A stretch of DNA of 64,000 bases from Cryobacterium psychrotolerans (lineage in GTDB: Bacteria; Actinomycetota; Actinomycetes; Actinomycetales; Microbacteriaceae), in NCBI RefSeq assembly GCF_900101115.1, contig NZ_FNFU01000002.1, forward strand, positions 148,689 to 212,688. The letters run 5' to 3'. A program made the translations under genes and the position numbers. This document shows positions 33,544-37,500 of this stretch, piece after piece. The notes beneath the pieces are model-generated. The model was not told the origin of the DNA, made no database searches, and saw only the letters and a program-made list of their open reading frames with translations. The first letter of the stretch is position 1, and the number at the start of each line of letters is the position of its first letter.

Positions 33544-34860
33544 TCACGCTTCTGCGGTGAGCCCGCTCTGGCCGAGCAGGATGCCCCGCAGCACGTCCCG
33601 AATCGCCGCGACGCCCTCGTAGGTTTCGACGAAGCTCGTACTCAGCGGCGACAGGCCGATCCGCAGGCCGTCGGGCGCGCGGAAGTCGGGGATCACGTCG
33701 TGCTCCCAGAGCGTCTTCGTGACCTGGCGCATCGCCGGGTGGTTCACGGTGAGGTGCCCCCCGCGGTGGGTATGCTCGCGCGGCGACGCCACGGTCACGC
33801 CCAGCGGCACCAGCCAGGCGTCGACGAGGGTCAGGGCGAATTCGGTCAGGGCCACGGATTTCGCCCGTAGCTGCTCCATCCCGGCTTCCTCGATCATCGC
33901 GATGGTGTCCTGCATCGCGAGCATGCCGACGACGGCCGGCGTGCCGCTCATGAAACGGCGGATGCCGGTGGCCGGCACGTACCCCGGGCCCATCGTGAAG
34001 ACATCCTTCGTGCCCATCCAGCCCTGGATCGGCTGGGTGAGCACGTCCTGCAGGTCGCTGCGCACGTAGCCGAACGCGGGAGCGCCCGGACCGCCGCTGA
34101 GGTACTTGTAGGAGCAGCCGACGGCCAGGTCGACGTCGCACAGGTCGAGCTCGACCGGGACGGACCCGACGGAGTGGCTGAGGTCCCAGAGCACCAGGGC
34201 TCCCTCGGCATGGGCGACCTGCGTGATCTCGCGCATGTCGGCGAGGAAGCCGGAGCGGTAGGCGACATGGCTGAGCAGCACAAGCGAGGTCTGCGGGCCG
34301 ACGGCGCGGCGCACCTGCTCGACGGTGACGCCGCCGGCCGGGTCGGGGCGCAGCCAGCGGAGGGTGAGTCCGCGCTCGGCGGCGATGCCCTCGAGCACGT
34401 AGCGGTCGGTGGGGAAGTTGTCGCTGTCGAGCACGATCTCGGTGCGGCCGGGGCGCGAGTCCACGGCGGCACGGGCGAGCTTGTAGAGCAGTACCGTGGT
34501 GGAATCGCCGATGAAGACCTGCCCGCCAGCGGCGCCGAGCGCGGCGCGGCCGAGGTCGTCGCCGATGGTGAGCGGCAGCTCCATCCACTCCTCGTCCCAG
34601 CCTCGGATCAGGCGGGTGGCCCAGGCGCCGGTCAGGAACTCGGTGATCCGCTCCACGCCGGCCAGTGTGGGCCGGCCGAGCGAGTTGCCGTCCAGGTAGG
34701 CCACGGGGTCAGGCTGCGGCCCGTCCGGGTCGGAGCCGGCCTCGGTGCCGACGAACCTGGCCCGGTAGTGCGCGAGCCCGTCGATGCGGTCCATCCGCCG
34801 GGCGAACGCGATGTGGGCGTCCAGGCCGCCGCCGACGACGGGGGTGGTGCTGGGGGTCAT
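33544..34860 (-). CDS. kynU: Kynureninase
   Basis: The 438-residue PLP enzyme cleaves kynurenine to anthranilate and alanine. Signatures are YLDGNSLGRPTLAGVERI, the substrate/PLP contacts in FIGDSTTVLLYKLARA, DLSHSVGSVPV, and the PLP lysine at residue 252 in GCSYKYLSGGPGAPAFGYV. The ATG overlaps the stop of the upstream amidohydrolase (ATGA). Together with kynA and that hydrolase it completes a tryptophan-to-anthranilate route. The fate of anthranilate is not encoded in this window. Confidence 0.94.
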   Translation of the reverse strand: MTPSTTPVVGGGLDAHIAFARRMDRIDGLAHYRARFVGTEAGSDPDGPQPDPVAYLDGNSLGRPTLAGVERITEFLTGAWATRLIRGWDEEWMELPLTIGDDLGRAALGAAGGQVFIGDSTTVLLYKLARAAVDSRPGRTEIVLDSDNFPTDRYVLEGIAAERGLTLRWLRPDPAGGVTVEQVRRAVGPQTSLVLLSHVAYRSGFLADMREITQVAHAEGALVLWDLSHSVGSVPVELDLCDVDLAVGCSYKYLSGGPGAPAFGYVRSDLQDVLTQPIQGWMGTKDVFTMGPGYVPATGIRRFMSGTPAVVGMLAMQDTIAMIEEAGMEQLRAKSVALTEFALTLVDAWLVPLGVTVASPREHTHRGGHLTVNHPAMRQVTKTLWEHDVIPDFRAPDGLRIGLSPLSTSFVETYEGVAAIRDVLRGILLGQSGLTAEA

Positions 34861-35765
34861 ACGTATTCCTCGAGCTCGGAGCGGCTGAGCGCGCGTGCGG
34901 TGCACACCCATTCGGCGAATCCGGCCGGATCGGTCGGGCGCTCGCCGGGTATAACGCTAACGGTGCCGTGCGCGTTCGCGCTCGCCGAGCCGGCGGCGGG
35001 GAAGGCGGAGGTGAGGGCACCGAGCACCTCGTCCGGCGACATCCCGATGCGAAGCAGCGCGTCGATTTCGCGGCGGTTGAGCCCGAGCGGCAGCGGTCCG
35101 TTGCCGAGGTCGGTGCCGTAGAGCACCCGTCCGCCATGCGCGTGGAAGCGGCGCAGGTTGTCGGAGGCGCGGGCGAAGTCGTCGGTGGGCTCGCCCCAGC
35201 CGTGGATGTCCAGGGTGCTGATCCAGGTCATCTGCCCGGCCATCGCGTCGACGAGTTCGTCCACGAGGCGCTCGCTGAACGGGGTGTGCGCCAGTACGTC
35301 GACGCCGGCGATGAAGGCGCGCACGGCCTGGCCGACCCCCTCTGCGTGGGCGACGACCGGCGTGGAGCGCTCGTGGGCCCGGGCGATGATCGCCGCGAGC
35401 ACGTCGGTGCCGAGCACGGGGCCGGCCACCGAGTTGAGGGTGACCTTGATCACGGATGCCCCTCCCGCCAGCTGGCGGTCGACGGCCGCGGCGGCATCCT
35501 CCGCCGTCGCCACCTCGCAGACGCTGCCGGCCGGAGCCCAGGACTGGGCGCCCGGGTAGCCGCCGGGAGCGGCGAGGAACTGGCCGGCGTGGGCGACTGC
35601 GAGCGGCGAAGAGCCGGTCCCGCTCGCCGCGGTGCCGCCGGGCTCCGGCGTCCAGCCGCCCAGGTCGACGACCCGGGCGATCCCGCCGGCGGCGAGGGCG
35701 GAGGGGTCGATCAGTGCCAGGTGCACGTGGGCGTCGAGGAACCAGGGGAGCACGGTGCCGCTCAC
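34857..35765 (-). CDS. Amidohydrolase-superfamily protein in the kynurenine operon
   Basis: The 302-residue TIM-barrel hydrolase has the metal-binding pattern of the amidohydrolase superfamily: DAHVHL (His13, His15), SVIKVTL (Lys), VVAHAEG and VLAHTPF (His residues) and YGTDLGN (Asp). GTG 35765 overlaps the kynA stop (GTGA) and its own stop overlaps the kynU start, so it sits inside the pathway. The step between TDO and kynureninase is N-formylkynurenine hydrolysis, and no KynB or alpha/beta-hydrolase formamidase is present, so this enzyme is a candidate replacement formamidase. That role is inferred from position only. Confidence 0.75.
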
Positions 35766-36616
35766 GTTCCGACCTCCGTGCGCACGGCGAAGAGCTCCGG
35801 GAAGAAGGTCAGTTCCAGCGCCTTCCGCAGGAAGGCCGCGCCGCTCGATCCGCCGGTTCCCGACTTCATGCCGATGATGCGCTGCACGGTCTTGAGGTGG
35901 CGGAAGCGCCAGAGCTGGAAGTTGTCCTCGAGGTCGACGAGTTCCTCGCACGCCTCGTAGGCGGCCCAGTGCTCCGTGGCGTTCTCGTAGATGCGGCGGA
36001 AGACCTGCACGAGTTCCGGGTGCAGCTCCCAGGCCTCGGTGACATCGCGCTCGAGCACGGCGGCCGGGATGTCGTGGCCGGCGCGGTGCAGGTAGCGGAG
36101 GAACTCGTCGTAGATGCTCGGGGCGTCAAGCACCTCGCTGAGCAGGGCGTGCGCATCCGGGTCGCTGTCGAAGACGCTGAGCATGCGGCGGTTCTTGTTG
36201 CCGAGCGCGAACTCGACCGCGCGGTACTGGTAGGACTGGAAGCCGGAGGAGTTGCCGAGGAACCCGCGGAACTGGGCGTATTCGGTCGGGGTGAGCGTGG
36301 CCAGAACCGACCACTGCTCGGTCAGCGTGCGCTGGATGTGCTTGACCCGGGCGATCGCCTTGAGCGCAGGGGCGAGCTGGTCGGTGCGGAGGAACTCGGT
36401 CGCCGCCCGGAGCTCGTGCAGCACGAGCTTAAGCCACAGCTCGGTCGTCTGGTGCTGGATGATGAAGAGGAGCTCGTCGTGGTGCTCGGGAGTGCTGACG
36501 GGCTTCTGCGCGCTGAGCAGCGTGTCGAGGGCGAGGTAGGAGCCGTAGCTCATCTTGTCCCGGAAATCGGTCACGATCTCCGGATCGAACTCGCGGGTAT
36601 TGTGCTCAACCGGCAT
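35762..36616 (-). CDS. kynA: Tryptophan 2,3-dioxygenase
   Basis: The 284-residue haem enzyme opens tryptophan to N-formylkynurenine. It has distal His55 in [14 protein letters not shown] and the axial haem ligand His240 in [28 protein letters not shown] 36616 follows a strong GGAAAGGG site; the frame is open further upstream but unconserved. It is the first gene of a three-gene, fully overlapping operon and is divergent from a TetR gene across 164 bases. Length and motifs are normal. Confidence 0.96.
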
Positions 36617-36767
36617 GGGGATTTCCCTTTCCGAACCGGGCGAGCTTGTGGCCACGATGCCAGGTTCCATTGTCTGAATTCTCAGTGTTACGAGCTTCCC
36701 ATGCAACTCAGCGCCCGCGAGACGCCTGGGCGGAGGATTCCCTCCGTGAATTGGGTCCCAGTGGTCC

Positions 36768-36773
36768 TAGACT
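36768..36773 (+). promoter_or_regulatory. -10 box of a probable leaderless TetR gene
   Basis: TAGACT lies seven bases before ATG 36781. No ribosome binding site precedes the start. Confidence 0.45.
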
Positions 36774-36780
36774 CGGGGCC

Positions 36781-37500
36781 ATGACTTCTTCCTCACGCGG
36801 CCCGCAGGAGGGGACCCTGCCGAGGCGCCGCGACGCCAGGCAAAACCGGGACCGGCTGATCACCGAGGCGCGGGCGATGATCGCCCAGAACGGCGTCGAC
36901 GCGTCCCTCGAGGAGATCGCCCGCCGCTCCGACGTCGGCGTGGCCACGCTGTACCGTAACTTCCCGACCAGGGACGACCTCGTGCGCGCCCTCTACGACA
37001 TCGCCCTCGCCCAGCTGGAGACCGTCCGCGAGGAAGTCGTTGCCGCGCCGAGCGCGTGGGACGGCGTCGTCGTCTATGCGGAGCGCGTCGCCGAGTGGCT
37101 CGTCGCCGACCCCTCGCTGCCGCACATCCTCAAGCGGATGGCCGCGGTCGACCCGTCCGCGCAGCCCGCCGCCGAATTCGGCAAGTTCATCGCGTCGCTC
37201 GTCGCCCAGGCCAAGCGCGACGGGGAGCTTCGCGCCGACGTCGAGACCGTCGACCTGGCCCTGCTCGTGACGCTGGTCGGCTCACTCGGCTCGCTCGGCG
37301 ACGGCTATGCCGGCCAGTGGCGGCGCCAGCTCGGGATCGTGCTCGACGGCCTGCGCGAACCCGCCCGTGACCGCCCGAAGCTGCCGGGCAGGCCGCTGAG
37401 CCCGAACGAATTCCAGGCGACCGTGCACGGCCTGTCGCGCCGGGCCAGGCGGGTCGCATCCCGCCGCTCCGGCTCGGCGAAAGGAAACGGGGCCCGATGA
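36781..37500 (+). CDS. TetR-family regulator
   Basis: The 239-residue protein has an N-terminal helix-turn-helix (about residues 21-66: RDRLITEARAMIAQNGVDASLEEIARRSDVGVATLYRNFPTRDDLV, here named by its flanks only) and a helical ligand domain with a TetR_C-type WLVADPSLPHILKRMAA segment. The Arg/Ser-rich tail after residue 215 is unusual. It is divergent from the kyn operon, which it may control, and its stop overlaps the ATG of a LacI regulator (ATGA). Two regulators of different families in one transcript is uncommon. Confidence 0.85.
   Translation: MTSSSRGPQEGTLPRRRDARQNRDRLITEARAMIAQNGVDASLEEIARRSDVGVATLYRNFPTRDDLVRALYDIALAQLETVREEVVAAPSAWDGVVVYAERVAEWLVADPSLPHILKRMAAVDPSAQPAAEFGKFIASLVAQAKRDGELRADVETVDLALLVTLVGSLGSLGDGYAGQWRRQLGIVLDGLREPARDRPKLPGRPLSPNEFQATVHGLSRRARRVASRRSGSAKGNGAR

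Follow-up and report, generated by a model that had tools for sequence, protein, structure and literature searches.

An amidohydrolase-superfamily protein encoded between TDO and kynureninase as candidate kynurenine formamidase of Cryobacterium and other Microbacteriaceae

Two non-orthologous kynurenine formamidases are described in earlier papers (PMC4217691; PMC4243253), in one of which KynB is given as metal-dependent, a property that the protein treated below would share (PMC4243253). For the mycemycin clusters, a further report proposes that the 'amidohydrolase' MymD/MyeD cleaves the amide of N-formylkynurenine between tryptophan 2,3-dioxygenase (TDO) and kynureninase (KynU), and it states that deletion of myeD abolished mycemycins A and B (PMC5867642). 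For one antibiotic cluster, the idea of an amidohydrolase for the formamidase step is already in print (PMC5867642). The open-licence literature yielded no paper that gives the kynurenine formamidase reaction to the family described here (AMH), and no evidence was found in that literature for a distinct short family that would generally catalyze this catabolic step throughout a bacterial family. The window analyzed here, a stretch of 64,000 nucleotides from Cryobacterium psychrotolerans (genome size 3,247,111 bases), contains an AMH gene.

The kyn operon and the AMH protein

On the minus strand of the window, kynA, the AMH gene and kynU are arranged head to tail in this order. The first gene, kynA (35762..36616), encodes a TDO of 284 aa that passes the TDO equivalog model TIGR03036 (406.2 bits, cut-off 390.7) and has the TDO 2nw7 as its best solved chain. 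AMH (34857..35765), the proposed kynurenine formamidase, comprises 302 aa; its reading frame begins with a GTG at 35765, upstream of which ggagg is found, and its stop codon ends at 34857. The product of kynU (33544..34860) is a kynureninase of 438 aa, whose start is located at 34860, the ATG at 34911 being merely the first in-frame ATG. It remains below the cut-off of the kynureninase model TIGR01814 (219.8 versus 246.4 bits), passes the Pfam model KYNU_C (89.5 versus 27 bits) and is most similar to the solved kynureninase chain 1qz9 (E 7.1e-82). The overlaps of four bases that the first-pass annotation had reported at both junctions proved to be exact, with GTGA (35765-35762) between kynA and AMH and ATGA (34860-34857) between AMH and kynU. 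The three genes are translationally coupled and presumably co-regulated. A TetR-family gene (36781..37500, plus strand; TetR_N 40.8 bits) diverges from kynA and is the probable regulator of the operon; the intergenic stretch (36617..36780) would be expected to carry both promoters. TetR genes with 51-96% identity lie beside TDO in seven of 33 other loci (L002, L003, L004, L007, L008, L009 and L034), most of the remaining loci having short flanks.

All metal-ligand motifs of amidohydrolases had been noted in AMH before, and the six ligands H13, H15, K107, H140, H160 and D219 (HxH, Lys, His, His, Asp) are indeed intact. They showed no substitution in an alignment of 60 rows (46 from a kyn context and 14 others), in which gaps occurred solely in L004 (H13/H15), where the extracted piece was cut short and the missing part is present in the fuller locus sequence, and in L017 (D219, in-frame stop). 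Since AMH scored 19 bits with Pfam Amidohydro_1 (PF01979), which is below the gathering score of 25, the assignment is carried by the motifs, the profile search and the predicted fold. Amidohydro_1 was matched by seven of 20 AMH relatives at E 1e-5. AMH passes no NCBIfam cut-off, and the sole NCBIfam model found with 20 AMH proteins at E 1e-5 was a dipeptidase model, far under whose cut-off the window protein lies; with the Xaa-Pro dipeptidase model NF051886 it scored 40.5 bits against a cut-off of 500. Neither the KynB model TIGR03035 nor an alpha/beta hydrolase model of Pfam matched AMH, which has the amidohydrolase motifs and fold instead. The AlphaFold2 model (pLDDT 90.5, pTM 0.90) could be superposed on the chains 3be7, 3mtw, 2qs8 and 8ihq over 282-287 residues with Z 26.6-27.8 and an rmsd of 2.9-3.0 A (3be7: Z 27.8, 287 residues, 3.0 A). 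A profile of 20 relatives detected chains of ochratoxin amidohydrolase, arginine carboxypeptidase and Xaa-Pro dipeptidase and chains named imidazolonepropionase in the PDB. AMH can be placed in the amidohydrolase superfamily, with a predicted barrel fold like that of solved members. Among AMH proteins of named organisms, the one from Cryobacterium tagatosivorans is the closest (94%). Proteins of Cryobacterium and Glaciibacter start mostly just before the HxH motif, and many relatives possess a longer N-terminal stretch. Residue 111 is N in 43 of the 46 kyn-context rows, E in 9 of 9 rows of a sister group and H in the four g35 rows; as a substrate signature it was dropped, since three kyn-context rows of family f34 also have H.

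AMH is very likely the kynurenine formamidase of the kynA-AMH-kynU pathway. TDO would convert tryptophan to N-formylkynurenine, the putative substrate from which AMH, acting as a metal-dependent TIM-barrel amidohydrolase, would free formate to yield kynurenine. KynU would then split kynurenine into anthranilate and alanine. The nucleophile of AMH may come from water activated by a metal at the six ligands, of which K107 is probably carboxylated.

Linkage of AMH to TDO and KynU

One set of 249 Microbacteriaceae genomes was searched for AMH and TDO. Strong AMH matches were present in 73 genomes, TDO in 86 and both in 61. An AMH match was regarded as strong at E 1.8e-38 or better, a threshold set post hoc by which 14 of 87 genomes with any match were dropped. 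Likewise post hoc, a visual division of the 86 TDO genomes gave 70 with one main type, including G170 and G106 with partial or split matches, and 16 with a divergent TDO (258 bits or less). Wherever TDO and AMH lay on one contig (59 of 59 genomes), AMH directly followed TDO on the same strand, and this constancy indicates that the operon arrangement is not due to chance; the remaining two of the 61 genomes have the genes on separate contigs. The distance between the matched parts was 6-522 bases, the value of 522 stemming from a split TDO match. KynU is the next gene of the set after AMH in 55 of these 61 genomes (the own locus, 26 of 28 AMH-TDO loci, G146 and 27 of 31 other loci), and no KynU match was found near TDO-AMH in six (G170, G064, G041, G051, G121 and G189). 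AMH and KynU without TDO occur in eight further genomes belonging to two genera (L036-L039, L044-L047). The partial sets, TDO-AMH on the one hand and AMH-KynU on the other, are symmetrical, as expected of a middle enzyme.

Some details were noted at individual loci. Among the sequences retrieved, those of L147, L148, L150, L152, L162 and L172 have a TDO-AMH pair and no KynU match. Arabinofuranosidase-like genes lie near AMH-KynU in L036, L037 and L045, and frames of 511 aa are present in the AMH-KynU loci L038, L044 and L047. IDO, which might supply the substrate where TDO is lacking, was matched in none of the 12 AMH genomes concerned, a weak negative since the IDO control likewise matched nowhere. 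Four g35 genomes (L040-L043) harbor AMH although neither TDO nor KynU was matched in the 13 kb inspected, which counts against a formamidase role; genes for a FecCD-type permease and an ABC ATPase are near the AMH relative in L043.

Gene order and co-occurrence would equally fit a pathway in which KynU acts first, converting N-formylkynurenine to N-formylanthranilate, from which AMH then frees anthranilate, and kynureninases may act weakly on N-formylkynurenine. Such an order is nevertheless very unlikely, as TDO-AMH pairs without a nearby KynU match exist (six of 61 genomes; L079, L080) and as the family that exchanges with AMH (see below) has a kynurenine formamidase among its solved relatives, implying the usual order.

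The linkage of AMH to TDO and KynU was also traced outside the Microbacteriaceae. A class-wide set of 394 genomes, in which eight of the 15 AMH-bearing Microbacteriaceae were already contained in the 249, gave AMH matches of at least 270 bits in 19 genomes (15 Microbacteriaceae and four of family f34); because at most five first-look candidates per genome were scored, absences in this set are soft. By coordinates, AMH adjoins TDO in 18 of the 19 genomes and KynU in the remaining one, the four f34 genomes showing TDO-AMH three times and AMH-KynU once. In the tree, the AMH group includes the f34 proteins, which stand apart from the sister group, and this suggests a transfer of the kyn operon. 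Among 72,556 plasmid records there was one AMH match at E 1e-5, located between TDO and KynU in Embleya, while phage records gave no AMH match. For the sister amidohydrolase group (157-184 bits; nine genomes of f18, f21 and f36, L068-L076), with E at position 111, the sequences retrieved, some of them truncated by contig ends, contained neither a TDO nor a KynU match. This group was not counted as formamidase; its genomes also have a TDO match. Eight further TDO loci (L115-L122) were inspected by a motif pattern for a mycemycin-like TDO-amidohydrolase neighborhood and none was accepted. The single pattern match, in L121, lies some 5 kb away from TDO on the other strand and has no proper DxHxH motif.

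The co-occurrence stems mainly from one family, with no correction for kinship, which would suit a hitch-hiker, kept by descent in Microbacteriaceae and playing no role in tryptophan breakdown. This explanation is extremely improbable, considering that Embleya and other families show the gene order as well, that dN/dS values of AMH versus three relatives are 0.13, 0.22 and 0.30 and that kyn loci lacking AMH contain an AFMID-type gene.

Known formamidase types in kyn loci and genomes

Twenty-five Microbacteriaceae genomes possess TDO without AMH, nine with the main-type and 16 with the divergent TDO. An alpha/beta hydrolase is encoded within 5 kb of TDO in six of the nine main-type genomes (L049, L050, L052, L053, L055 and L056), in several of them as the next gene to TDO. 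Seven aligned AFMID-type hydrolases have HGG.W and GHSAGG in common. In L055, a flavin-reductase-like gene (L055:7061-7564) separates kynU from the alpha/beta hydrolase gene. When an AFMID type was called present at 77 bits or more, a limit set post hoc, and at most ten candidates per genome were scored, matches were obtained in eight of the nine main-type TDO genomes without AMH and in none of the 61 with AMH, whose best score among these candidates was 66 bits. The exclusion of AMH and AFMID type gave a Fisher p of 9.5e-10 (n=70), uncorrected for kinship and with 23 genera facing six. AMH is linked in the genomes to TDO and kynureninase and is exchanged with a known formamidase type.

The AFMID-type profile is partly circular, as five of the six kyn-linked hydrolases, together with two of family f26, went into it; these five scored 321-390 bits and the sixth, outside the profile, 134 bits. 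Independent of the profile among the eight genomes are G066 (134 bits), G138 (118 bits, unlinked) and G009 (85 and 77 bits in two frames, unlinked). Among solved chains, the profile matches the kynurenine formamidase 4e11 (E 2.8e-13) and, far better, the carboxylesterase 9x6a. AFMID types are encoded between TDO and KynU in L118 and beside TDO-KynU in L097, L098 and L102, and none was matched in any of 34 kyn loci re-examined. G150, which has AMH and no TDO, contains an AFMID-type match of 173 bits, a result that speaks against the exchange. G084 (main-type TDO) has neither AMH nor an AFMID type, and a cyclase-family protein of this genome scored 78 bits with the KynB model. The first-pass annotation had stated that the alpha/beta type is absent. 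This holds for the operon but not genome-wide, because generic alpha/beta hydrolases (PF20434 up to 117 bits) are encoded elsewhere in the Cryobacterium genome. The best of them reached 54.9 bits with the AFMID-type profile, which was also the best value when all candidates of five genomes of the genus were scored.

The 16 divergent-TDO genomes (0.7-1.7 Mb for L057-L067) gave matches to neither AMH nor the alpha/beta type. KynU is located beside the divergent TDO in the 11 loci fetched (L057-L067), and the KynB model, applied to two of these genomes, gave no match in G010 and 96.5 bits in G131. Possibly, the divergent-TDO loci represent another case of a missing formamidase. Twenty hand-picked TDO loci of other families without AMH had the alpha/beta type within 5 kb in three cases (L097, L098, L102) and neither formamidase type within 5 kb on each side in 17. 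Known formamidases are by no means always linked to TDO.

KynB had been described as absent, and a search of the Cryobacterium genome bears this out. The sole PF04199 match lies on another contig, scores 29.6 bits with the KynB model (cut-off 223) and has isatin hydrolase as its best solved chain (240 bits); a KynB elsewhere in the genome was rejected, since this isatin-hydrolase-like protein is the only PF04199 match. Its gene (L001:1285-2121) is located near a PaaX-like regulator gene. KynB above the curated cut-off of TIGR03035 was found in none of 80 Microbacteriaceae genomes (61 with AMH and TDO, nine with TDO without AMH, eight with AMH-KynU and two with divergent TDO) and in none of a further 40 actinobacterial genomes. 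Since the built-in control did not pass the cut-off in any case, a TDO-adjacent cyclase on a Niveispirillum plasmid was chosen as positive control; it scored 265.7 bits versus 223, demonstrating that the model detects such a KynB. No KynB-model match at all was obtained in 21 of the 61 TDO-AMH genomes, and the other 40 contain intermediate cyclase-family proteins with up to 111.5 bits, which remain a caveat on the absence of KynB. Of these proteins, the top-scoring one has closer solved relatives in the hydrolases 1r61 and 8hmo than in KynB. In G146, a cyclase-family protein is encoded 3 kb from TDO.

It is conceivable that the substrate of AMH is a different compound connected with the pathway, such as an oxidized or N-acylated kynurenine or a kynurenyl peptide, and that the formamidase is an unlinked cyclase or alpha/beta hydrolase. 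The cyclase-family matches in 40 of the 61 genomes, the generic alpha/beta hydrolases of Cryobacterium and the many TDO loci with no formamidase gene nearby are compatible with this possibility, and so are the eight genomes with AMH-KynU and no TDO and the dipeptidases and carboxypeptidases among the nearest solved relatives. It also agrees with G141 (L165, G141:C12), a genome of the same genus counted among the 61, in which AMH was matched only over residues 3-134, with kynU 30 bases on; its AMH is apparently truncated beside intact TDO and KynU. Also unfavorable to the formamidase reading are in-frame stops in AMH of G139, G041 and G551. On the other hand, another substrate would explain neither the presence of the AFMID type where AMH is missing and its absence where AMH is present, nor the 21 of 61 genomes without a KynB-model match, and this possibility is judged unlikely.

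AMH and the described formamidases and amidohydrolases

The first-pass annotation had put forward AMH as a candidate non-orthologous formamidase. Comparative genomics supports this proposal by the slot between TDO and KynU and by the AFMID type where AMH is missing. A formamidase function is favored because of the four-base overlaps, the co-occurrence of TDO, AMH and KynU, the replacement by the AFMID type and the absence of KynB, and also because of the gene order in f34 and Embleya and the nearest solved relatives, which hydrolyze amides or peptides. Confidence is slightly lowered by the truncated AMH of G141 and the partly circular AFMID-type profile. It is likely that AMH represents a third, independently evolved formamidase class, belonging to the amidohydrolase superfamily, which is usual in TDO-bearing Microbacteriaceae, has spread with the operon to other actinobacteria and, in two genera, serves with KynU alone on N-formylkynurenine made elsewhere. 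If true, a third formamidase would close a gap in the annotation of a large family of actinobacteria and provide a compact case of one function performed by three folds, two of which are exchanged in the same operon.

AMH would be the third protein family for this reaction, beside the cyclase-family KynB and the alpha/beta hydrolase AFMID, with which it exchanges in kyn loci. The ochratoxin hydrolase ADH3 (8ihq), the Xaa-Pro dipeptidase 2qs8 and the arginine carboxypeptidases 3be7 and 3mtw, which we take to be the COG1228 group, resemble AMH in predicted fold and sequence profile and, judged by their record titles, cleave amide or peptide bonds. However, their identity to AMH is just 18-22%, they carry an N-terminal stretch before HxH that is missing in Cryobacterium AMH, and AMH, unlike them, is found in a context of tryptophan catabolism. 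KynB (PF04199/TIGR03035; 4cob, 4cog, 4co9, 4cz1) shares with AMH the proposed reaction and the linkage to kynA but belongs to another protein family. The same proposed reaction is attributed to the AFMID-type alpha/beta hydrolase (solved as 4e11), which is present in the kyn loci of relatives devoid of AMH and differs from it by the serine-hydrolase motifs HGG.W and GHSAGG and by an unrelated fold. MymD/MyeD is proposed to perform the same step but has 513 aa and belongs to secondary metabolism in a Streptomyces cluster (PMC5867642).
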